Source: a virus. From it: a stretch of DNA of 39,262 bases. The translations under genes and the position numbers were made by a program. Within the stretch, counting starts at the first letter, position 1, and each line of letters starts with the position of its first letter. Shown in pieces: positions 17,019 to 39,262 of this stretch. The stretch is from IMG/VR virus record IMGVR_UViG_3300023210_000088, positions 1 to 39,262 of that record; one strand, 5' to 3'. The notes under the pieces are model-generated. The model was not told where the DNA came from. It searched no databases and saw only the letters and a program-made list of their open reading frames with translations.

Positions 17019-20000
17019 ATGAGCAATAAGATAACGATATTACTAAAAGCAGAAACGGTAGAAGCAACAAAGAATATAAATAAGTTTAAAACAGATGTAA
17101 AGTTAGCTACAGGAACGATAGAAAACCTACATAACGAATCTACAAAACTATACAATAGACAAAAAGACGAACTTGCAACATATACAACTGCTGTAAAAAC
17201 TCATGAAACTGAACTTAAAAGAATAAGAGAGCAAAAAGCAACAGACATAGAAGACCATACTAAAAAGTTAGCAGAGTTAGAGGGTCAGGGTGTATATAGT
17301 GGAAGCAAGAAAGCAATGCTTAAAGATAGAGATATCCTTGATGCAAAAATACAAACAAAACAGGAGGAAATAGCAAACTTAGAATCATTCAACAAAAAAG
17401 AAGATGAATTAATAAAAGATGGAACTACTGAAAGGTCAAAGCAATATAAGAAGAATCAAGATAACTTAAAAGACCATAATGAAAAAGTTAAAGAAATAAC
17501 TCTTCAAAGAGATACTGTTCAAAGAAGTATAGAACACGCAAAATCATCAGCAGACCTAAAAAGAATAGAACAAGTTGCAAAAGCTGATATAGCAGAAGAA
17601 ACAAGAAAGCTAAAATCTACAGAGAATCTATACAAAAAATCTCAAACACAACTAGCTAGAGATAAAAAAACAAACTATGACTCAATTACAGAAGCAAAAA
17701 ATACACTACAGCAAAGAAAAGACCTACTTCAAGAAAATGTAAATATAGTAGAAACAAATAACAAAAAGATAATAGAAAATATCATTGAATCCGATGAAAA
17801 AATAAGAAAACAGAAGATAGATAGTGCCTACAGTTCTGTTGCAGACCAAGTAAATGCAGAAATAAAAGGCAATAAAAAACTAGAGCAGATTAAAAAAACA
17901 ACACAAGATGAAAAAAATCTTTTAGAAAATGCAAATAAAGAAAACAAAGAAGCATGGAATAAACACAGTGCGGACTTACATACTGATAGAAAAGCTCACA
18001 GCACAAAAGTAGCAAAGTTTAATGCTCTGATGGCAAATCAAAGAATTGCAGAAGAGAATGACAAAAACAATAAACTAGAGAAGATAAAAAAAGATAACAT
18101 TAAAAGTCTTGAAAAAATAGAACAAGATTCGCATGGTGCATCCGATGATAAAATAAATAAAGATAGAGAGAATAAAAGACTAGCATATCAAGAAGCTTCA
18201 CTTGCAAATAGAAAAGCTCACAGTAAAAAAATAACTGACTTTAATATGCAGATGGCATCACAAAGAACAAAAGAATTTGAAGACTCTTTTAGTGAAGCAA
18301 CTAGACATAATGATGGGTTGATAAAAGCAGAGAATAAGCTAAATAAAGATTATGAGTTAAAAGCAACAGATAGAGCAAGCTTTATAAAAAGTAATGGTCA
18401 AAAAATAAACTCAGTTCTTGACGGTCTTAATAACCAAAAAACAACAATCCACGCATCTGAGATAACTAGGTCAAAAGAAAGCCTAGATAACTTAAAAGCT
18501 TATTCAAAGCTAGAAAAAGAATCTAACGAGAAAAGATTTAACGATAGACAAGATTTTGATAATGCTTGGATAAAGTCACAAGCTAAAATACAAAAGATAA
18601 GAGAAGAAGAATCTAAAATAATAGATACTGGTACATCAAAAGCTGATGAAAATAGACTAAAATCACTTGAAAATGAAATTATAAAAAAGAAAGAATTAAG
18701 TAAAGCGAATACAGTTGCGAATGAGAAAAGAAAAAAACTAGATGATACAATAAGAGAAAGTCTTAATACTCAAAAAAAAGAAGCAATAGAGGGTGAGAAG
18801 TGGCATAGACAAACATATGTAAACACTAAAGCAACAAACGCTTATGAAGATGCAAAAGATAAGCTAGACGACCAGCTAAAAAGAAATATAATATCTCAAA
18901 GCCAATATAACATAGCACTATCAAAAGAAAAATCAAACCTAAACAAAGCAACACTAGCATCAGACAACCACGCTAAAAGCACAGAAAGTCTAGCAAACCA
19001 AACAATACGCTATATGAGATGGATGGGTACACTAGCTGGAGCTTACTATGCAGTAAGTGCATCTATGAGAGTAACAGTAGGTCTAGGTATAGAAGTAAAT
19101 AAAATGATGGAAGATAACACATTCGGTATAGCAGCTTTAACTTCTGCAAATACTAGAATGATAGATTCCATGGGAACGCTTCTTACTCCAGTAGATAAGT
19201 TCATAATTGGTCAAAAAATGGCTAAAGAGACTATGGCTCAACTGAGAGTAGAATCACTTAAAACTCCAGCAACTTTCGGACAACTTACTGAGATATACCA
19301 GCAGGCTACAGGTCAAACTCTTGCGATGGGAGATGCTTTTGGTACAGCTGTAAAATCAATAAATAAAAATACAGTTGAATTATCACAAAGATTTTCAAAT
19401 ATAGCAGGCGCTATTGGTCAGCCAATGGATCGTGTAAAAGAAGAGATTCGTTCTGCATTAACAGGTAATGTAAGTACAGATTCTATTATTTCAACAATGA
19501 TATTCGGTTCTCCAACAGAAGCAAATAAAGCGATAAAAGAAGCTAAAAAAAGAACAAATGGGCTTAAGGAGCTTTTTGATTTAAAGTTCAAGCCATTTGA
19601 TATACTTGGAGAAACAAGGTCTTACCAAAAGGGTTTCTTGGCTATGCAAAATGCTTGGGAAATGTCTATGGCAGATATGGTTGAAAAATCAGGAATGTTT
19701 GCAGATATAACAGATGCTTTTTATGAAATAAGCCAAAGCCTTGCAGAAAATTCAGATGAAATGGTTAGTGATTTTAATAGCATCTATGATTCTGCAAAAG
19801 ATGTAGTAGGAGTTTTAGATAATATACTAGTTCCAGCAATAGCTGCAAGAACAGTATATGGTTTAGCTACAGCTTTTGGTGTTCTTACAGCAGCAACCCA
19901 CGCAAATACACTAGCAGCACTTAAAAACCCTTATGTTTTAGCAGCAGTTGCAACAGCAGGAGCAGGATATACAATATACGAGTACTTTTCTGATGAAGCA

Positions 20001-23000
20001 GATAGACTTGATGAGGTTGCAAAACTAATAGAATCTAAAACAGAATCTATAAACAGTATGCAAACTTCAAAGATAGTTGAAAGTAGAGAAGCAATATCTA
20101 AGCAGTTAAGAGAAGAAAACAAAAAGATAAACCAACTAAGAATAGATATGGGAGAATATACTCTATTTGAGAAGCTATCTTTTGAGCCAGAAAATGAAGA
20201 CACGGTAGCTTATGAGAAGCAACTAAAAGTAATAAAAGAACTTACTGAAGCATATAATAAATATAAAGATATAGAAAATAAACAAACAGATACTAAAAAA
20301 CAACTTGAAGAGCAGTCAACACTTCTAACTAAAATAGCACTAAATAAAAAAGTAATAGATGATGTAAATAAGTTCACTGCTAAAGATGAAGATGAATTAG
20401 TTACTCTTGCAGAAAGTAGAGTAGAATGGAGTGAAGCATTGCTCGTAGTTCAGAAAAAACTAGGATTAAAAATAAATGAAGATGCAAAATCTCAGAAGAT
20501 ACTAAAAGATGCAGAAAAAACAATCCAAGAGGGAATAGAATCTTCAAAAAACAAAACAGCATCTATAACAGCAGATAGACAAGCTAAAGAGTTGAAAGCA
20601 AGTCAAGAGTACCAAACAGCATTAGCAAATATATCTGGTGTTGAGGTAAAGCTATCTGACCAAAAGCTAAATCAAATAGCATCAGCAGAAAAGATAAGAG
20701 AAAATGCAGAAAAGAATTTTAAAGAAGCAGTAGGTGCAAAAAATATATCTGAAGCACAAGTAAAACTAGATGAAGCAAAAAAGAAAGAACTTGTATTACA
20801 GTTTGAGTATCAAGGGGCTATAACTAAAGAGCAAGAGAAGCAACTAAAAAACGATAAAGATAGAATTAAAAATGTAAATGATTTATTTGCAACAATAAAC
20901 AAACAAACTAAACAGCAGCAAGATATGTATGATATGTTTTATGACATAACTATACCAGATTCTGTAAAGATGCTTGATGAAGCAAATGAGAAGATGATAA
21001 GTCTTTACAATAGTGGATTGTTTACAGCAAAACAACTAGAAGAAGTAGCAGATATTCTCTATAAGGATGATGAGGTTTCTCTTTTTGATAGCTGGGGAGA
21101 GATGGCATCATCTCAGATAACAAGTGGAATCCATGAGGGGATACAAGACGGACTAAGTGGAGACTTTGACTTATCTAAACTAGTAGGTAGTATAACAGGT
21201 GGAATAGGGGATGCGTTTACAACTGCTTCACTTTCAGCTATAGCATCACAAGCAGGAACAGCGCAAGGAATCCAAAGCGGAAGTATGTGGGGTCTTGCTG
21301 GTGGAGTTGCTCTTATGGGTGTATCTTCTTTGATGGGAAGAGATGAGGATGAGTATAAGAAACAAATAGAAGCAATAGATAACCAAACAGACAAGATAGT
21401 AGGGTCATTAGATGCTCAAACATCTCTGCTTGAAAAATTAGGAAACACATCTGCTGCAACTCAAAGTGACTTCCAATCTACGGTTGCCAGTTTTGAGGGA
21501 GAGATAGCAAAGTTTGCGGTTTTAACTAAAAAAACAACTGAAAAATGGCACGGTATCGAAATTTCTTCTGCTGAATACAATAGAACATTTGACACTTCTA
21601 CGATACAAGCATTTACAGAGCAGTTTGATGAAGTTATGAGATATGTAGATGCTGGGTATAAAGCTGACTTTACAGAGTTTAACATACAGCTTGACAATGT
21701 ATCAGTTGGGATACTAGATACCGTAGATACTTTTAAGACTTTATCAAAAACTTTAACTGATGTGTACGATGGTCTAAATGACAACATTTTAGCAGAAAAA
21801 AAACTTGCAGATGCTAGAGAAACTTTAGAAAACCTAACGGTGACAAGATACAGAATGAGCAGAACGGGTGCAATCGCATATGAGGACAAGGTTTTAGGGG
21901 AAGATTTTACTGAAGAGCAATTTTCTAGATTCATCTCTACAGCTATTACAAATATTGACAACCTATCGACATCAGTTGGTGCTTTAGCAGATGACTTAGA
22001 ATCTCCTGACACAAAGACACATCTGCAAGCAGTAGCAGATCTGGAAAAAGCAACAGGATTGATGTTTGAGGGTAATGTAAAGGCTGCACAAGACACAATA
22101 GAGTATATAGAGCTGTATGGAGGAGCTTTGGCTGAGTCTAAAGCAAACATAGCAGAGTGGGAACAAAGAAATGAAACAGCATCCGAGAAGGTAGCAAGAC
22201 TCACGGAAGAGATGAAAGATAACGGCTATGTGATGAACAGCTATAGCGATGCACTTGAAGAAGCTAGTGATGGTGGTAAAAGACTCACAGACAGGGAGCT
22301 TGAACTACTACAAGCTAGAGAAGAAGCAGCAGAGATAACAAAAGCTGAAACAAAAGCCAAAGGTGACAAAATACTAGCAGATAGAGAGGCTTTTGAGCTT
22401 CTTCAAGATAGCTTAAGCACAACAATCTACGATACTTTTGCAACAGATACGGAAAAGCTAAATGATGCAATGAGCGTTCTAAGTCTAACAACTGAAACAA
22501 TGCCAAAAAACATAGAGAAACTTAGTGACCACATAGTAGGGCTAGATAAATCTTATATAGATACAGCAGATGAAAGCTCTGAGTTTGTAAGTGCTATAAA
22601 CACCGTGAAAGATACTTTTAAAGAAGTGGCTGTTGAAATAGATGGATTATCAGTAAAAGGGTTATCACTTGTAGACTTCTTTGATAGTGTAGGGAAAATT
22701 TATGGTAAAGAGTTTAAGCTAGAAACGGCAATGTTTCAGCTTAAGGAAATTACAGAAGATTTCGGAGCCTACAGTTCGAAACAAACAATAGTCGATATAA
22801 ACGCTGGTGCAGAAATAACAGCAGATAAACTAGAGATGTTGTATTTTGCTTTTGAAGCTACAAACGGAAGCATAAACGACTTAGAGCAAACAGTATTAAG
22901 TGCAGGCTTGGCATCATTACAGACAGCAGAAGATTTAAAGAAAGCATCATTACAAGCATCAAAAGACTTAAAGGATGCAAATGAAGAAAAAAGAAAATCT

Positions 23001-24134
23001 CTACAACAAGAGCTAGATATGCTTACTGAAGTTACAACACAAAGAGATATAGACTTAGCACTACTAAGCGAAGAAAATAAGTCAATCTTAGAAGAAATAC
23101 ATCTACAACAAGATGCAAATAAATTAGCAGAAACAAACAAAACTCTGCAAGATGAATTAAACGGTTTAACTTTAACAACTGCACAGCTTAGAAAAAAAGA
23201 GATATCAGATATGGATGCTTCAACAACCTCTATTAAAGAATCTATATGGGCTTTTCAAGATTTAACAGAAGCACAAGGAATCATAGCTGATGATATAGTG
23301 AACACATGGAAAGATGCTTCTGATGAAATTTTATCTCTATCTAATACTTTCTCATCTCTAAGCAATAGCATAGGCGATACTATATCTGAACTCCTTGGTG
23401 GAAGCGATGCACTAGATTCACAAGATACTCTAATAAAAGACTTCTGGAATAAGCAAGGTGAACTAGATAAACTTTTAAGTAAAGATAGCTTCACATCTAT
23501 TGATGAGACAAGGATTAAAAGTTTAGTTGATAGTATAACTGGTCTATCTCCGCTAATCCAAGGAGCAGCACTAGGAGACAACACTCAGATAACTTCAGAA
23601 ATGGTGAGCGTACTAGATAAAATAAACAAAGACGTCTTAACAGCACAATCAGGCTTAAGCATACAAGATACTATAGGTGAACTAAACCAAACAACAATAG
23701 ATTATTTAGGAGCAGACAGTGAGATAGTGTCTTGGCTAAAAACTCTAAATGGTACGGTAGGAGAATTAAGTTTTTCAGACTACACGCTACAACAAACAAC
23801 AGTAGGTGCATACGACATAATAGACGGTTCACACGCAATGGGATTAGCAAATGTACCTTATGATGGATACATAGCAGAACTACATAAAGACGAGAGAGTT
23901 TTAACAAGAGAAGAAAATAAGATATACACTCCACAAAACAACATATATCCATCAATCGATATGCTAAAACAATACGGAAATAACACTAGCGACCCAGAGA
24001 TTAAAAAACTTCTTAAGAACATTTCAGAAAAGCTTGATAAATTAGATATAATATCAAAAGCAACAAAACACACAGATGCTACACTTACAGCAGTGTCGAA
24101 AAGTGGAAATAAACTTAGAGTGGAGATAGCTTAA
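17019..24134 (+). CDS. Tape measure protein
   Basis: 2371 aa, by far the largest gene, in the lambda H position after G/GT. Residues 1-640 are charged, helical coiled coil (repeated K/E-rich heptads). Hydrophobic segments occur near 655-690 (RWMGTLAGAYYAVSASM), 930-985 (VLAAVATAGAGYTIYEYF) and 1380-1430 (GLAGGVALMGVSSLMG), as in proteins that form a channel at DNA ejection. Near the C-terminus SHAMGLANVPYDGYIAELHK and ERVLTREE match the conserved tape-measure end 'G...VPYDGY.A.LHKGERVLT.EE'. Using about 0.15 nm per residue, known for siphophages, the tail would be near 350 nm. ATAAGG precedes the ATG; the stop overlaps the next start (TAATG). Confidence 0.93.
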   Translation: MSNKITILLKAETVEATKNINKFKTDVKLATGTIENLHNESTKLYNRQKDELATYTTAVKTHETELKRIREQKATDIEDHTKKLAELEGQGVYSGSKKAMLKDRDILDAKIQTKQEEIANLESFNKKEDELIKDGTTERSKQYKKNQDNLKDHNEKVKEITLQRDTVQRSIEHAKSSADLKRIEQVAKADIAEETRKLKSTENLYKKSQTQLARDKKTNYDSITEAKNTLQQRKDLLQENVNIVETNNKKIIENIIESDEKIRKQKIDSAYSSVADQVNAEIKGNKKLEQIKKTTQDEKNLLENANKENKEAWNKHSADLHTDRKAHSTKVAKFNALMANQRIAEENDKNNKLEKIKKDNIKSLEKIEQDSHGASDDKINKDRENKRLAYQEASLANRKAHSKKITDFNMQMASQRTKEFEDSFSEATRHNDGLIKAENKLNKDYELKATDRASFIKSNGQKINSVLDGLNNQKTTIHASEITRSKESLDNLKAYSKLEKESNEKRFNDRQDFDNAWIKSQAKIQKIREEESKIIDTGTSKADENRLKSLENEIIKKKELSKANTVANEKRKKLDDTIRESLNTQKKEAIEGEKWHRQTYVNTKATNAYEDAKDKLDDQLKRNIISQSQYNIALSKEKSNLNKATLASDNHAKSTESLANQTIRYMRWMGTLAGAYYAVSASMRVTVGLGIEVNKMMEDNTFGIAALTSANTRMIDSMGTLLTPVDKFIIGQKMAKETMAQLRVESLKTPATFGQLTEIYQQATGQTLAMGDAFGTAVKSINKNTVELSQRFSNIAGAIGQPMDRVKEEIRSALTGNVSTDSIISTMIFGSPTEANKAIKEAKKRTNGLKELFDLKFKPFDILGETRSYQKGFLAMQNAWEMSMADMVEKSGMFADITDAFYEISQSLAENSDEMVSDFNSIYDSAKDVVGVLDNILVPAIAARTVYGLATAFGVLTAATHANTLAALKNPYVLAAVATAGAGYTIYEYFSDEADRLDEVAKLIESKTESINSMQTSKIVESREAISKQLREENKKINQLRIDMGEYTLFEKLSFEPENEDTVAYEKQLKVIKELTEAYNKYKDIENKQTDTKKQLEEQSTLLTKIALNKKVIDDVNKFTAKDEDELVTLAESRVEWSEALLVVQKKLGLKINEDAKSQKILKDAEKTIQEGIESSKNKTASITADRQAKELKASQEYQTALANISGVEVKLSDQKLNQIASAEKIRENAEKNFKEAVGAKNISEAQVKLDEAKKKELVLQFEYQGAITKEQEKQLKNDKDRIKNVNDLFATINKQTKQQQDMYDMFYDITIPDSVKMLDEANEKMISLYNSGLFTAKQLEEVADILYKDDEVSLFDSWGEMASSQITSGIHEGIQDGLSGDFDLSKLVGSITGGIGDAFTTASLSAIASQAGTAQGIQSGSMWGLAGGVALMGVSSLMGRDEDEYKKQIEAIDNQTDKIVGSLDAQTSLLEKLGNTSAATQSDFQSTVASFEGEIAKFAVLTKKTTEKWHGIEISSAEYNRTFDTSTIQAFTEQFDEVMRYVDAGYKADFTEFNIQLDNVSVGILDTVDTFKTLSKTLTDVYDGLNDNILAEKKLADARETLENLTVTRYRMSRTGAIAYEDKVLGEDFTEEQFSRFISTAITNIDNLSTSVGALADDLESPDTKTHLQAVADLEKATGLMFEGNVKAAQDTIEYIELYGGALAESKANIAEWEQRNETASEKVARLTEEMKDNGYVMNSYSDALEEASDGGKRLTDRELELLQAREEAAEITKAETKAKGDKILADREAFELLQDSLSTTIYDTFATDTEKLNDAMSVLSLTTETMPKNIEKLSDHIVGLDKSYIDTADESSEFVSAINTVKDTFKEVAVEIDGLSVKGLSLVDFFDSVGKIYGKEFKLETAMFQLKEITEDFGAYSSKQTIVDINAGAEITADKLEMLYFAFEATNGSINDLEQTVLSAGLASLQTAEDLKKASLQASKDLKDANEEKRKSLQQELDMLTEVTTQRDIDLALLSEENKSILEEIHLQQDANKLAETNKTLQDELNGLTLTTAQLRKKEISDMDASTTSIKESIWAFQDLTEAQGIIADDIVNTWKDASDEILSLSNTFSSLSNSIGDTISELLGGSDALDSQDTLIKDFWNKQGELDKLLSKDSFTSIDETRIKSLVDSITGLSPLIQGAALGDNTQITSEMVSVLDKINKDVLTAQSGLSIQDTIGELNQTTIDYLGADSEIVSWLKTLNGTVGELSFSDYTLQQTTVGAYDIIDGSHAMGLANVPYDGYIAELHKDERVLTREENKIYTPQNNIYPSIDMLKQYGNNTSDPEIKKLLKNISEKLDKLDIISKATKHTDATLTAVSKSGNKLRVEIA

Positions 24135-26166: not shown

Positions 26167-27552
26167 ATGGCAAAAACATCAGCACAAATCTATCAAGAGT
26201 TTTTGGATACTTTTAGTGACAATATGGCAGACCCAGCAAAAATGGATAAATTAGGAGTTGGATTCAAAGCTTTTATGGATGCACAAAAGCTAATAGTAGC
26301 AGATGATGGATTAGCAGTTTATGACCCAACAAAACCATACGGCTTAATGTGGAATCAAATCGAAGATACTTACTATAGATACGGTCACACGATACCAACA
26401 ATCCAACAACAGATGCGAAGAGTTGTATGTAATGGAAACCCTATGTTTGGTGGCACAGTCTTTAGATACCTAGATAAAGATGATTCAGCACTCTTTGAAG
26501 ATGGAACAGATGCAACAAGTTATGTAACTGGGGCAGAGGGCGGAAACTATCAGGTTTTTGTAGAGATACCAAAACACTATGTAAGAGACTATGCAAACGG
26601 AAGTCTTCAATATAACATAGTATCTCTAACTAAGTTCGATGGTGGGGTAACAGATAAATCTTTTAGAAAATCAGGTTGGACAGATTCTGGAGATGGAACC
26701 GATGCAGACAATGAGAGCAGCTATGCTTATATATCAGCTTTCGAGGGAGTAAGATACGATGACGGCACAGGCTTACTAGTAGACGGTACAGGTTCAACTC
26801 CAACTTTAGACCTAGTAAACGATAAAATCTTATCGGTATCGGGATATAAACCAGAAACAAACATCACAAGAGACCAATCAAGACAGATGATAGCAAACGG
26901 TTCATCGAAGCAGTTCGACTGGCACAGATACAGTTTGATGAGAAGATTGTTTATAATAGAGTACGGAACAAACGACTCTCAAAGTGCGATACCTGGCTAC
27001 ACAGAAAACGCATCAGGAGCATCATACGCAAATGATGTAATGAGAACAGGCTTAACTCTAAGCTTAGGTAACAACTCAGGTTCAATAAGCGGACTAGATC
27101 AATTTGAAGCAGGTGGTGGAGACGCTGGAGGATTTAGCGGAGTAGTAGCAAACTCATACAGAGGTATAGAAAACTTTTATGGTCACTTATGGCAGTGGGT
27201 AGATGCAGTAAACATCACAAACGGTCAACCATTCGTAAATGACATATTCGGTGTTTTTGCAGATGATGTATATACAGGTGAATATATTAGAGCAAAAGAC
27301 AGCGATGGAAAAGATATAACAAATCCATTGTCAAGTGGCTATCAGTCAACTCTAAATTCTGGAAGTTTTTTCCCTAAAACTATTGGTTCTAATTCTAATT
27401 CTAAAATAACAGATAATCATTATTATGCTTCTGGGAATCGTGTTCTGAGCTCGGGGGGCAGTTTGGCTGGTTCCTCGGGTGCTGGTGTCTCGTGTTTGTA
27501 TGGGTATAATTCTTCCTCGATTGTCAGTTGGAATGTCTGTTGCCGTGCTTAA
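26167..27552 (+). CDS. DGR target: tail tip protein with C-type-lectin/FGE-like variable domain
   Basis: 461 aa. The N-terminal about 130 residues form a separate mount. The C-terminal about 300 have the pattern of the formylglycine-generating-enzyme/C-type lectin fold used by DGR targets, e.g. RGIENFYGHLWQWVDAVNI (cf. 'GNVWEWV') and a conserved terminal WN-V-CCRA. Residues 426-461 are the variable region. Compared with the template repeat 11 residues have changed, eight of them at template AAT (Asn) codons. The protein likely sits at the tail end and binds the host receptor. Clear AAAAGGATAT start. Confidence 0.9.
   Translation: MAKTSAQIYQEFLDTFSDNMADPAKMDKLGVGFKAFMDAQKLIVADDGLAVYDPTKPYGLMWNQIEDTYYRYGHTIPTIQQQMRRVVCNGNPMFGGTVFRYLDKDDSALFEDGTDATSYVTGAEGGNYQVFVEIPKHYVRDYANGSLQYNIVSLTKFDGGVTDKSFRKSGWTDSGDGTDADNESSYAYISAFEGVRYDDGTGLLVDGTGSTPTLDLVNDKILSVSGYKPETNITRDQSRQMIANGSSKQFDWHRYSLMRRLFIIEYGTNDSQSAIPGYTENASGASYANDVMRTGLTLSLGNNSGSISGLDQFEAGGGDAGGFSGVVANSYRGIENFYGHLWQWVDAVNITNGQPFVNDIFGVFADDVYTGEYIRAKDSDGKDITNPLSSGYQSTLNSGSFFPKTIGSNSNSKITDNHYYASGNRVLSSGGSLAGSSGAGVSCLYGYNSSSIVSWNVCCRA
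27442..27550 (+). repeat. DGR variable region (VR)
   Basis: 109 bp at the 3' end of the target gene, aligning without gaps to 27630-27738. There are 17 mismatches, and every one lies at an adenine of the template (10 A>G, 5 A>T, 2 A>C). All non-A template positions are identical. Positions include 27449-27450, 27461, 27466-27467, 27469-27470 and 27478-27479. The last two (27546, 27549) are silent and may belong to the homing-start element. Confidence 0.95.
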
Positions 27553-27580
27553 AAATTTTCTAAAGCACCAACCTTAAAAT

Positions 27581-27608
27581 AAACTTAAAGCAATTTAGCT
27601 TTAAGTTT
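27581..27608 (+). other. DGR hairpin downstream of VR
   Basis: AAACTTAAAGC (27581-27591) pairs perfectly with GCTTTAAGTTT (27598-27608) over 11 bp around loop AATTTA. It starts 30 bp after the VR end. In studied DGRs a hairpin or cruciform at this position enhances homing at the target. It could also act as a terminator for the target mRNA. Confidence 0.75.
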
Positions 27609-27629
27609 TAGGATATAAAATGCAAACAG

Positions 27630-27738
27630 GTTCTGAAATCGGGGGGCAATTTGAATAATTCCTCGAATGCTGGTGTCTCGTATTTGAATGGGAATAATTC
27701 TTCCTCGAATGTCAATTGGAATATCTGTTGCCGAGCAT
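27630..27738 (+). repeat. DGR template repeat (TR)
   Basis: 109-bp template, 188 bp downstream of the VR and 114 bp before the reverse transcriptase. In the VR frame it reads VLKSGGNLNNSSNAGVSYLN..., with ten AAT codons and one AAA placed at sites to be varied. It is transcribed into RNA and copied with errors at adenines. Confidence 0.95.
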
Positions 27739-27852
27739 TTGTGAAAGGTAAACAACGCATTTTATGTCCTTACCTCTTGGTAAAATACATATATAATCTC
27801 ACTATGTGCTAGTAGGGAAGCCGAAAACTCAGAGATACAAAAGCAGAGATAA
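27739..27852 (+). ncRNA. TR-RT spacer of the DGR template RNA
   Basis: No gene in these 114 nt. A small hairpin TTACC-TCTT-GGTAA (27770-27783) is visible. In Bordetella phage DGR the RNA between TR and RT is needed for priming and cDNA synthesis; this stretch is in the corresponding place. Role here is inferred. Confidence 0.5.
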
Positions 27853-28950
27853 ATGAAAAGAAAAAATAATTTATATAACAAAATACTAAATACAAATAAT
27901 CTTATATTTGCACACAGTAGAGCAAGCAAAGGAAAACTCGAATACACAGAAGTAAAAAAGATAAATGAAAATCTAAACAAGTATATATTTGAACTAAATA
28001 AAAGCTTAATAAATAAATCACATAAAACATCAAACTATAAAATAGATACCAGAATTGAAAGAGGAAAAGAAAGAGTTATCTACAAACTTCCATACTTTTC
28101 AGACAGAGTTCTGCATCACGCACTATTGCAAGTTGTTCAGCCAATATTAGAAACAGCATACATAAAAGACACATATCAGTCCATAAAAGGTCGTGGGATA
28201 CACAAAGCTAAAAAAAGAGTAGAGAGTTTTTTAGAAGATAGAGAAAATACAGTCTATTGTTTAAAAATAGATATTAAAAAATACTATCCAAATGTAAATA
28301 ATGAAATACTTAAATCTCTAATAAGAAAAAAGATAAAATGTAAAGATACTCTTTTTCTAATAGATGAGATAATTGACAGCACAGAAGGACTTCCGATAGG
28401 AAACTACACATCTCAAACTTTTGGTAATTTTTATCTTTCATATTTCGACCATTGGATAAAAGAAGATAGAAAAATAAAATATTATGTTAGATATGCAGAT
28501 GATATGATATTTCTACATAGAGATAAAGATTTCTTGCATAAATTAAATGAAGAAATGCAGCAATATTTATTAGAAAATCTAAAACTAACTCTAAAAGAAA
28601 ACCATCAAGTGTTTGAGATTAAATCAAGAGGAATAGATTTTCTAGGGTTCAAATTTTACCACACATATACATTAATAAGAGGTTCAATAAAAAAAGCATA
28701 TCTAAAAAAGATAAGAGAAATAACAAAAAATAGAATAAAAAAGGAGCATATAAATTCAATAATGTCTTATTATGGATGGCTGAAAGCAGGAAATGGGTAT
28801 AATCTACTCAGAAGCACAATTAGCGATAAAATATCTTGCAGGGTAGAATACTTTTGCAAAAAATCTGGACTAAAGAATCCATTCAGGAAGATATTTATAT
28901 CAGTAAAAAAAGTAAACAGGTTTGGAAGATTTCAACCAACTCTATTTTAG
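27853..28950 (+). CDS. DGR reverse transcriptase
   Basis: 365 aa. Motifs in order: ...RVIYKLPYFSDRVLHHALL (about 74-92), KIDIKKYYPNV with catalytic Asp140, GLPIGNYTSQTFGNFYLSYFD (179-199), which is the DGR form of motif 4 (LPIGNxTSQ rather than the QGxxxSP of group II introns), VRYADDMIF with Asp216/Asp217, and GIDFLGFKFY (260-269) for the primer grip. The C-terminal thumb is basic. No maturase or endonuclease domain follows. It copies the TR RNA with adenine-specific errors. Starts after AGAGATAA, a weak ribosome site. Confidence 0.95.
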   Translation: MKRKNNLYNKILNTNNLIFAHSRASKGKLEYTEVKKINENLNKYIFELNKSLINKSHKTSNYKIDTRIERGKERVIYKLPYFSDRVLHHALLQVVQPILETAYIKDTYQSIKGRGIHKAKKRVESFLEDRENTVYCLKIDIKKYYPNVNNEILKSLIRKKIKCKDTLFLIDEIIDSTEGLPIGNYTSQTFGNFYLSYFDHWIKEDRKIKYYVRYADDMIFLHRDKDFLHKLNEEMQQYLLENLKLTLKENHQVFEIKSRGIDFLGFKFYHTYTLIRGSIKKAYLKKIREITKNRIKKEHINSIMSYYGWLKAGNGYNLLRSTISDKISCRVEYFCKKSGLKNPFRKIFISVKKVNRFGRFQPTLF

Positions 28951-28969: not shown

Positions 28970-29371
28970 ATGCAACTATTAAGCAGTGATTCACCAATAA
29001 CATACAAAACAATAAAAAGTCCTAGGGGTCTGTTCGCCTTAGCAAACCCAAGAGAGAGACAAGCAGGCGAAGGGATAGTGTATGAAGCGGACAAGATTCC
29101 TATCTCAGATATAACAGATGCAGATGAAGCTATCAAGCAGTACAAACTAGAACATATAGAAGTAGCTTTATCTACAGGCAAAGTTTTGTATGCAGATAAA
29201 GATAGTAGAAATGACATCTCACATGCCATACAGCTTATGGAGAGCGAAGGTGTAGATTCGCAAGGCTGGAAAACAGTTAATGGAATCAAATCAGTAACTC
29301 TTGCAGAGTTCAAAGAGGCTCTTAAGCTCGGTCTTATCGAAAAAGGAAAAATCGTAGGAGTAGTAAAATGA
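28970..29371 (+). CDS. DUF4376-like tail-associated protein, 133 aa
   Basis: The C-terminal half (RNDISHAIQLMESEGVDSQGWKTVNGIKSVTLAEFKEALKLGL) matches the pattern of DUF4376, common next to phage tail fibres and often in fibre-assembly proteins: 'R..I..AI..a...G...W....g...VTl.Ef..a'. It follows the DGR reverse transcriptase with AAAGGAAAT before its ATG. A role in assembly or trimming of the tail tip is plausible. Confidence 0.6.
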   Translation: MQLLSSDSPITYKTIKSPRGLFALANPRERQAGEGIVYEADKIPISDITDADEAIKQYKLEHIEVALSTGKVLYADKDSRNDISHAIQLMESEGVDSQGWKTVNGIKSVTLAEFKEALKLGLIEKGKIVGVVK

Positions 29372-29889
29372 GTTGGTTTAAGAAATACTTTTGTAAAAAA
29401 GAGATAGGAGAGATAGAAGCACTCAAGATTAAACTAGAAGCCTCTAAAGTTGCAATAAAAAGTGCTATGGACTGGAGAGAGTCAAAGATAATGTACGAAG
29501 AGCCTAGAAAACTAGATTTGAGATATAATGTGTCAAAGTTGCTTGCAGGAGCAAAGATACTGTTTATCGCCGATTACAACATGTACGGCATAGACAAAAA
29601 AGATGTTGAAAAGGTTATGAGTATACACCCAGAAATTGCCGACAGTAAGTATATCAAAGAAGCTTATGACTGTGATGATTTCGCATCAGCGATGTTCGGA
29701 GTCTTTAACCAAAGAGGATTAGGTAGATTTGCATTTGGGTATGCTCTAAGTAAATCTCATGCGTTCAATATCTTTGTAGATAGAGAGTGTAAGCTGTGGG
29801 TAGTAGAACCTCAAACCAACAGAATAATGAGTTACGACTATGCCCTAACTGTATCAGATATCTATAAGATAAACAGATACTTTTTCTAA
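29368..29889 (+). CDS. Putative transglutaminase/NlpC-like cysteine peptidase, 173 aa
   Basis: A Cys-His-Glu set is visible in the right order: DCDDFASAMFG (Cys102), SHAFNIFVD (His131) and WVVEPQTN (Glu147). This spacing is typical of the transglutaminase-like cysteine protease fold. The gene overlaps the previous stop (ATGA) and precedes the lysis genes. It may help cut peptidoglycan at entry or lysis, or act as a structural lectin-like fold that has kept the triad. No signal peptide. Confidence 0.5.
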   Translation: MSWFKKYFCKKEIGEIEALKIKLEASKVAIKSAMDWRESKIMYEEPRKLDLRYNVSKLLAGAKILFIADYNMYGIDKKDVEKVMSIHPEIADSKYIKEAYDCDDFASAMFGVFNQRGLGRFAFGYALSKSHAFNIFVDRECKLWVVEPQTNRIMSYDYALTVSDIYKINRYFF

Positions 29890-37629: not shown

Positions 37630-37941
37630 ACTTTTTAGTTTTAGTGCATACTCTGTTCCATCTTTAAAACCTTTCACATAGTCTTCACTATCTTTAGTTT
37701 TATTAGACTTCAGTTCTTCTATCTTGCTATGTATTTCTAGCAAAGCATCTTTTGCTAACTCTGCTGTTTTAAAACATAAAACTTGTGTACCAATCATGTT
37801 TTGATTTATATGTATATTGTATATCTCTTCAGCTTTGTTTTCTATATTTCCATTTTGCCACTGAAACTCTCCCATAATTGTCATTGACTGTATCTGAGTT
37901 TCATCTATGTAATTTTTTCCATAATAACCATCTATTAACAT
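37612..37941 (-). CDS. Hypothetical protein, 109 aa
   Basis: MLIDGYYGKNYIDETQIQSM... has a beta-rich N-terminal part and a helical C-terminal part (ELAKDALLEIHSKIEELKSN). No known family. Its ATG lies within the end of the KilA-N gene, with GGAG in that gene, so the two are coupled. Its 3' end carries the FNR-box of the next gene. Confidence 0.55.
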   Translation of the reverse strand: MLIDGYYGKNYIDETQIQSMTIMGEFQWQNGNIENKAEEIYNIHINQNMIGTQVLCFKTAELAKDALLEIHSKIEELKSNKTKDSEDYVKGFKDGTEYALKLKSLDSSQ

Positions 37942-38660
37942 AACTTCTCCTTCAATTTTTCATAATCAGTAATCCCACCAAACTCTATAAACCCACTAAG
38001 CTTTCTCTCTACTTCAGTAATCTCATCAAGAAGCTCTTTACTAAGATAATCACGAACACTTTTACCATCTTCAACTTCTATACCATTATCTTTGGCATAC
38101 TTAGAACCAGTAGAGCCAAGAACTTTAATATTCACAAGCCCACTAAGATTATTGTACGCAAACTTCTTAGCATTATCACTCTCTTGTGCAGGAATATACA
38201 CATCACGAATAACCTTAGTTAAATCCTTGAAGAGAATCTTTGTGTTGTCTCTTTCTATCTTTAGTTCGTTAGTATGAATAATAAGGTTCTCTAAGAATCT
38301 ATGAAATTCATACTCTAGTTCTGTATCTATCCACAAGATAAACTTTAACATAAGCTTTGAATGAAACCATGTTCCACCATGCTTACCTCTTGTTGTTTTT
38401 GACATTTCAATTCCGTGATAATCACGGTTTAACAACTGTAGGTATTTTACATATCCCTCAGTCCTCTTGAAGTTAGAGATATCTTTTTTGTAGAGCTTTG
38501 CGATAGTTGTAGCATTAAAATATGCACGATTAGAGTTTAACGGTTCTTGCATCATCTTTTTTATATCTATCTCAACATCTCCATTAGGAATATTAAGAGT
38601 TAAGAATCTACTACTCATGTTTATCTGGTTGAGGTCACACACTACTATATTACTTTGCAT
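37935..38660 (-). CDS. KilA-N domain protein
   Basis: 241 aa from ATG 38660 (AAAAGGATTGAAG upstream), preferred over TTG 38666. The KilA-N DNA-binding domain spans about residues 40-125: RAYFNATTIAKLYKKDISNF, YVKYLQLLNR, TTRGKHGGTWFHSKLMLKF and LWIDTELEYEFHRFLENL, all typical. The C-terminal part (YIPAQESDNAKKFAYNNLSG, DYLSKELLDEI) is an associated phage domain of antirepressor-type proteins. KilA-N proteins act in phage early regulation. The end overlaps the next gene by 7 nt. Confidence 0.85.
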   Translation of the reverse strand: MQSNIVVCDLNQINMSSRFLTLNIPNGDVEIDIKKMMQEPLNSNRAYFNATTIAKLYKKDISNFKRTEGYVKYLQLLNRDYHGIEMSKTTRGKHGGTWFHSKLMLKFILWIDTELEYEFHRFLENLIIHTNELKIERDNTKILFKDLTKVIRDVYIPAQESDNAKKFAYNNLSGLVNIKVLGSTGSKYAKDNGIEVEDGKSVRDYLSKELLDEITEVERKLSGFIEFGGITDYEKLKEKLC

Positions 38661-39262
38661 CTTCAATCCTTTTTGTTGCTATGTCGAAGTAATTATCATC
38701 AAGTTCTATGCCGATGAAGTTACGGTTTAGATTCCTGCAAGCTACTCCTGTTGTTCCACTTCCCATTGTGAAGTCTAAAACTAACTCATTTTCATTTGTG
38801 TAGGTTTTGATTAGGTATTCCATTAGTGCTACTGGTTTTTGTGTTGGGTGCATACCTTTTTTCCACTCAGACTTAATGCACAAAACACTTGATGGTTCTC
38901 TAAAGCCATCATCAATTTTTCTTATCGTGTCTCTGTTCAGTATTTTGTGTTCGCTAGTTGTGGACTTTTTTCTGGTTCTTTGTTTTCTCTTATCAATATA
39001 TCTATCATCAACTTTGTATCTAATACCATTAAATATCGGTGGCTTCTTATAGAACACTGATATAATTTCGTGATGCTTTAATGGTGCTTTTCCACTTTGA
39101 GCAAAATTTCCAGCTCTTGTTTTCTCCCAAACCCAATCATACTTATAATTCTTAATATTACTCATTCTTAAAGCACTACTAAAAGGCTCTGAACCAAACA
39201 AAACTATTGCACCATTAGGTTTAATTAATTTATTTAATCGTGTCCACATATCAGGAAAAGGT
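38650..39262 (-). CDS. DNA methyltransferase (N6-adenine/N4-cytosine type), partial
   Basis: The frame is open to the right edge and lacks its true start. Visible: GAIVLFGSEPFSSAL, YDWVWEKTRAGNFAQSGKAP, HHEIISVFYKK, MHPTQKPVALMEYLI, VLDFTMGSGTTGVACRNLNR (motif I with the S-adenosylmethionine GxGxxG-like turn) and NFIGIELDDNYFDIATKRI. The catalytic (D/S/N)PP(Y/F) motif would lie upstream of the window, i.e. a beta-class order. It probably protects phage DNA from host restriction, as no restriction gene is in sight. Its 3' end overlaps the KilA-N start. Confidence 0.88.
   Translation of the reverse strand, partial: PFPDMWTRLNKLIKPNGAIVLFGSEPFSSALRMSNIKNYKYDWVWEKTRAGNFAQSGKAPLKHHEIISVFYKKPPIFNGIRYKVDDRYIDKRKQRTRKKSTTSEHKILNRDTIRKIDDGFREPSSVLCIKSEWKKGMHPTQKPVALMEYLIKTYTNENELVLDFTMGSGTTGVACRNLNRNFIGIELDDNYFDIATKRIEDAK

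Follow-up and report, generated by a model that had tools for sequence, protein, structure and literature searches.

An Avd-less diversity-generating retroelement at a tail-fibre-like gene of a lambda-like phage, with variation confined to the variable repeat in a sister phage

The window analysed here is the whole 39,262-nucleotide stretch of IMG/VR record IMGVR_UViG_3300023210_000088. The locus under study, with all of its features on the plus strand, comprises a target gene ending in a variable repeat (VR), a template repeat (TR) and a reverse transcriptase (RT) gene. In a diversity-generating retroelement (DGR), the end of a target gene is rewritten from a template that is copied with random errors at its adenines, so that many host-binding variants are put on trial. 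For comparison we relied mainly on a sister phage (IMGVR_UViG_3300023240_000212, locus L002), the RT of which is 76% identical to the window RT, and on another contig of that same phage (IMGVR_UViG_3300023294_000154, locus L155).

The target gene (26167-27552) encodes a 461-residue tail-fibre/collar-like DGR variable protein that falls in the PHROG tail family phrog_5302 (E 2.8e-49), and most of its viral matches carry the name tail collar fibre protein. A structural model built on 4 sequences was too poor to use (pLDDT 32); we relied instead on an AlphaFold model from 73 sequences, with a pLDDT of 88.4 and a pTM of 0.86. The closest solved fold is that of Thermus aquaticus TaqVP (PDB 5vf4; Foldseek E 8.8e-9); the structural alignment extends over 264 residues up to the C-terminus, with a Z of 25.4 and 19% identity. 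Next come Mtd, the Bordetella tropism determinant, and formylglycine-generating enzymes at Z ~11; the PDB fold matches listed include no DGR variable protein other than TaqVP and Mtd. The model confidently gives the target a C-type lectin fold, the C-terminal end of which is formed by VR. We surmise that this tail-fibre/collar-like protein may sit at the tail tip of the virion, as the earlier note had placed it. Its gene follows a long 2371-residue ORF (17019-24134), a location consistent with a tail gene; this ORF, a putative tape measure by its place, had no Pfam or PHROG match.

VR (27442-27550) and TR (27630-27738) align without a gap over 109 bp with 17 mismatches. In every one of them the TR base is an adenine, replaced in VR by G ten times, by T five times and by C twice. 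Our realignment returned the same coordinates, length, mismatch count and adenine-only split that the earlier note had given. TR carries 27 adenines, 17 of which differ in VR while 10 are unchanged; the probability that all 17 differences would fall on adenines is 2.6e-13 by the hypergeometric test. At the non-A template positions, VR and TR are identical at 79/79 over a 104-bp block, and the window holds a single VR, the best other site matching at no more than 40 of these 79 positions. Eleven target residues are altered vs. the template version, eight of them at AAT codons, which reproduces an earlier claim as well.

The homing block extends from 27442 to about 27543, with homology declining beyond. 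The two terminal A>T differences, at 27546 and 27549, are synonymous and fall beyond the final shared block. The stretch of the sister phage that corresponds to this region, just past the end of VR, differs between TR and VR at non-A template bases (T and G), on account of which the differences at 27546 and 27549 in the window are probably end-of-repeat differences (IMH vs. IMH*) rather than mutagenic ones. Since these two terminal differences fall outside the homing block, the changes attributable to mutagenic homing probably number about 15, and not 17. By analogy with BPP-1, we presume that the 3' end of VR (27529-27543) acts as the IMH; beyond it the homology declines and the end-of-repeat differences appear.

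Downstream of VR lies an inverted repeat with 11-bp arms and a 6-nt loop (27581-27608), which is a candidate target-site hairpin or cruciform. Its fold has a z of -4.6, with 0/200 shuffles as good, and it is kept with compensating changes in the sister phage (AAACTTAACTA/TAGTTAAGTTT); elsewhere, a 10-bp hairpin is present in locus L003 and a weak one of ~5 bp in locus L004. BPP-1 requires a post-VR structure with a GC-rich stem and a 4-nt GRNA loop (PMC3240598), a rule from which the AT-rich window hairpin with its 6-nt loop departs. Because the BPP-1 hairpin is of a different type, the window hairpin can at most be surmised to function in homing. We also considered this hairpin as a terminator and rejected the idea, there being no T-run after it and no entry at this site in the terminator scan.

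The RT gene (27853-28950) specifies a 365-residue protein with a 58-bit RVT_1 match and with the motifs LPIGNYTSQ and YADD, in agreement with the LPIGNxTSQ and YADD motifs reported earlier; both the ORF and the catalytic YADD are intact. The top PHROG family of this protein, phrog_1423 (E 1.8e-104), is also that of the BPP-1 Brt, and among solved chains it is closest in sequence to 8ub7_A (E 5e-34), with group II intron RTs ranking lower; we take the 8ub7 entry series to be the BPP-1 bRT ribonucleoprotein. The annotated phage RTs nearest to it include those of the crAss-like phages cr55_1 and cr6_1, at 47-48%. In the RT tree, the window RT groups with that of the sister phage (100/99), and the pair is joined by the RTs of L003 and L004 (100/100), each RT lying beside its own TR. 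With few outgroups and long branches, this tree supports the DGR placement and is not a full classification; one of its rows, L153, which we had labelled group II, carries no annotation beyond RNA-directed DNA polymerase. The profile search, which had been proposed as a check, and the tree agree on a DGR-class RT.

Where both TRs carry an A, the VRs of the window and the sister phage differ at 17/22 positions, vs. 0/72 where the TRs share another base; at the non-A positions inside the block where the two TRs themselves differ, VR matches its own TR at 7/7. As VR bases track their own TR at non-A sites and differ at A sites, VR has been re-copied from TR in each lineage. The earlier note had counted VR and TR evolving together against the element, which was misphrased, since under retrohoming the non-A sites of each VR should match the TR of the same element, exactly as seen at these seven positions. 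Its suggestion of looking in related genomes for A-position variation over VR with a constant TR did bear fruit. Between the two contigs of the sister phage there are 17 substitutions in 5459 shared bp, all within VR, 16 of them at TR adenines and the other at a T, and the portion of TR compared (35 bases in L155) is identical to that of L002. With substitutions confined to VR and 16/17 of them at TR adenines, the DGR carried by the sister phage is active under natural conditions. A pattern search, from which near-identical records may have been missing, returned no second genome or contig of the window phage; for this reason we infer activity in the window phage itself from its own VR/TR pattern together with the sister phage, and the window DGR is probably functional. 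A TR directly upstream of an RT, with the same A-biased pattern, was found at 123 loci, the window included.

TR is bracketed by a 14-nt inverted repeat, the 5' arm of which (27610-27623) is 93% complementary to the 3' arm (27757-27770), and we predict that the two covarying arms form a long-range helix, P1, enclosing TR. The 5' arm was misplaced in a MAFFT alignment of the spliced TR flanks, and we therefore tested P1 by exchanging arms between loci: over 84 non-redundant loci, the flank pairing score was 11.86 for true partners vs. 9.25 for swapped arms (sd 0.175). In eight diverse loci with an unbulged P1, 77/80 cells pair and 8/10 columns vary on both sides, a covariation reached by 0/1000 arm shuffles, with the proviso that these arms were picked by best pairing, which inflates the counts and makes the 84-locus test the fairer one. 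The comparison of relatives thereby predicts a specific and testable RNA helix around TR.

The spacer following TR (27766-27850), with a small hairpin at ~27770-27783, appears to be a structured RNA. It matches Rfam RT-17 (RF03020) over the full length of the model at 39.7 bits (E 5e-6), which is 0.7 below the gathering cut-off of 40.4, and hence we call it RT-17-like only. Eight related loci (L003, L007, L008, L011, L013, L026, L051 and L055) have an RT-17 match above the cut-off immediately ahead of the RT, and in 6 of these 8 a TR was detected directly upstream of that match. Given that RT-17 always lies just before the RT, and after TR where TR is detected, it is probably the 3' part of the template RNA of Avd-less DGRs, and the wider relatives thus link an orphan Rfam RNA to the DGR template RNA. 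Unlike the Rfam model, which covers the 3' side only, the first bases of the match in the window appear to run into the helix with the arm that precedes TR. RT-17 was named in no paper that we found; a 2017 paper, which lay outside that literature search, reportedly describes the RT-n Rfam motifs.

We found neither PF05635 nor bAvd (PF22296) in the window, a single 39-kb record, and bAvd was absent from nine relatives, with the BPP-1 positive control detected by the same search. The cassette order of target, TR and RT without an accessory gene is that of the "lineage 3" DGRs, exemplified by crAssphage LMMB, and roughly one DGR in four has no accessory gene (PMC7290462). The lineage 3-type label used here goes by gene order and missing avd, and it should be read in that sense. 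The window resembles crAssphage LMMB in its target-VR-TR-RT order, missing avd and tail-collar-fibre target (PMC7290462), but differs in that the window phage has lambda-like head genes, is AT-rich and is not crAss-like. With the BPP-1 DGR (Brt, Avd and Mtd) the window shares the RT family, adenine mutagenesis, a hypervariable lectin-fold C-terminus and location in the tail module; in contrast to the window, BPP-1 possesses Avd and shows no clear TR-enclosing helix by the same scan (z 0.05).

Repeat pattern, RT family, target fold and VR-confined variation in the sister phage agree in identifying the element as a complete, Avd-less (lineage 3-type) DGR in a lambda-like tailed phage, a reading to which we assign a probability of about 0.97 and which bears out the complete DGR claimed in the earlier note. 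We propose that the TR-bearing RNA would present TR in a loop closed by helix P1, followed by the RT-17-like structured spacer, and that the adjacent RT would reverse-transcribe this TR RNA, presumably by RNA priming, with errors at adenines. The resulting cDNA would then take the place of VR in the tail-fibre-like gene, with the 3' block common to both repeats, and probably also the hairpin 3' of VR, directing the exchange. The outcome would be randomization of about a dozen surface residues of the C-type lectin domain, presumably altering receptor binding. Speaking against this reading are the lack of a second isolate of the window phage, the missing Avd (usual for the type), the atypical hairpin, the sub-threshold RT-17 match and the one non-A change in L155.

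Since the window phage is represented by a single genome, one might argue that a formerly mutagenic cassette has become frozen in this phage as an inactive relic. We consider this quite improbable, for the RT ORF and its catalytic YADD are intact, the complete agreement at non-A positions betrays no drift since the last homing event, and the sister-phage element varies between contigs. Two direct repeats 188 bp apart might also be thought to stem from a simple tandem duplication whose copies diverged, independently of the RT, through biased mutation or recombination of the contingency type. This explanation, to which we give next to no credence, is refuted by a pattern that is strictly adenine-only and one-directional, by the recurrence of the same arrangement beside related RTs in the 123 loci, and by VR tracking its own TR at non-A sites.

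It is equally hard to believe that the repeats adjoin, by chance, an RT of some other class, be it a group II intron, retron or defence RT. PADLOC and NCBIfam do return weak matches to many RT classes, but the curated NCBIfam matches are all far below their cut-offs, and the PHROG family held in common with Brt, the rank of 8ub7_A before the group II RTs and the 100/100 clade with three other DGR RTs all argue for the DGR class.

The DGR of the window is a good new example and not a new type of element. DGR surveys of IMG/VR contigs have already been published (PMC8144416), and so this specimen may already be catalogued. Its value lies in being a clean and complete DGR of the Avd-less type, carried by a lambda-like phage and belonging to a lineage for which the natural evidence of activity is unusually direct.

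Loci L003 and L004 stand apart in the length of their identical VR/TR runs, 64 and 73 nt, respectively, the next longest among the 123 loci being 33 and the median 15. Among the TR adenines shared by the window and the sister phage, those on the 5' side were lost at 11/16 in L003 and 8/16 in L004, vs. 0/6 and 1/6 on the 3' side. The 5' parts of these TRs (L003:1927-2036 and L004:5780-5882) seem, judging from these sequences, to have been replaced by a copy of a diversified VR, suggesting that the variable gene may serve to renew its own template. It is possible that the adenines were instead lost through ordinary selection on the template, or that an assembly error is involved. Templates updated from the variable gene were not seen in the papers found. 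A broader and rather doubtful proposal would be that in sister phages such as L003 and L004 backflow from VR to TR fixes good variants as the template, leaving only the 3' adenines mutable, and that an Avd-less scaffold of P1 and RT-17 replaces the role that Avd has in Bordetella.

Elsewhere in the window, a GpA terminase and a lambda-family portal fit the lambda-like gene order that had been described. A Campylobacterota host, which would suit the Campylobacterota features mentioned alongside it, was not established: TerL is nearest to that of a Thiohalocapsa phage (33%), followed by Nitratiruptor phages (27%), and TerL and portal gave distant phage matches only. The minus strand encodes a DNA methylase (PF01555; 38650-39249) and a KilA-N domain protein (37935-38666). 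The gene block after the RT includes a 173-residue protein (29368-29889) that comes close to the threshold for Agglutinin C-terminal (PF18021; 26 vs. 26.8 bits).
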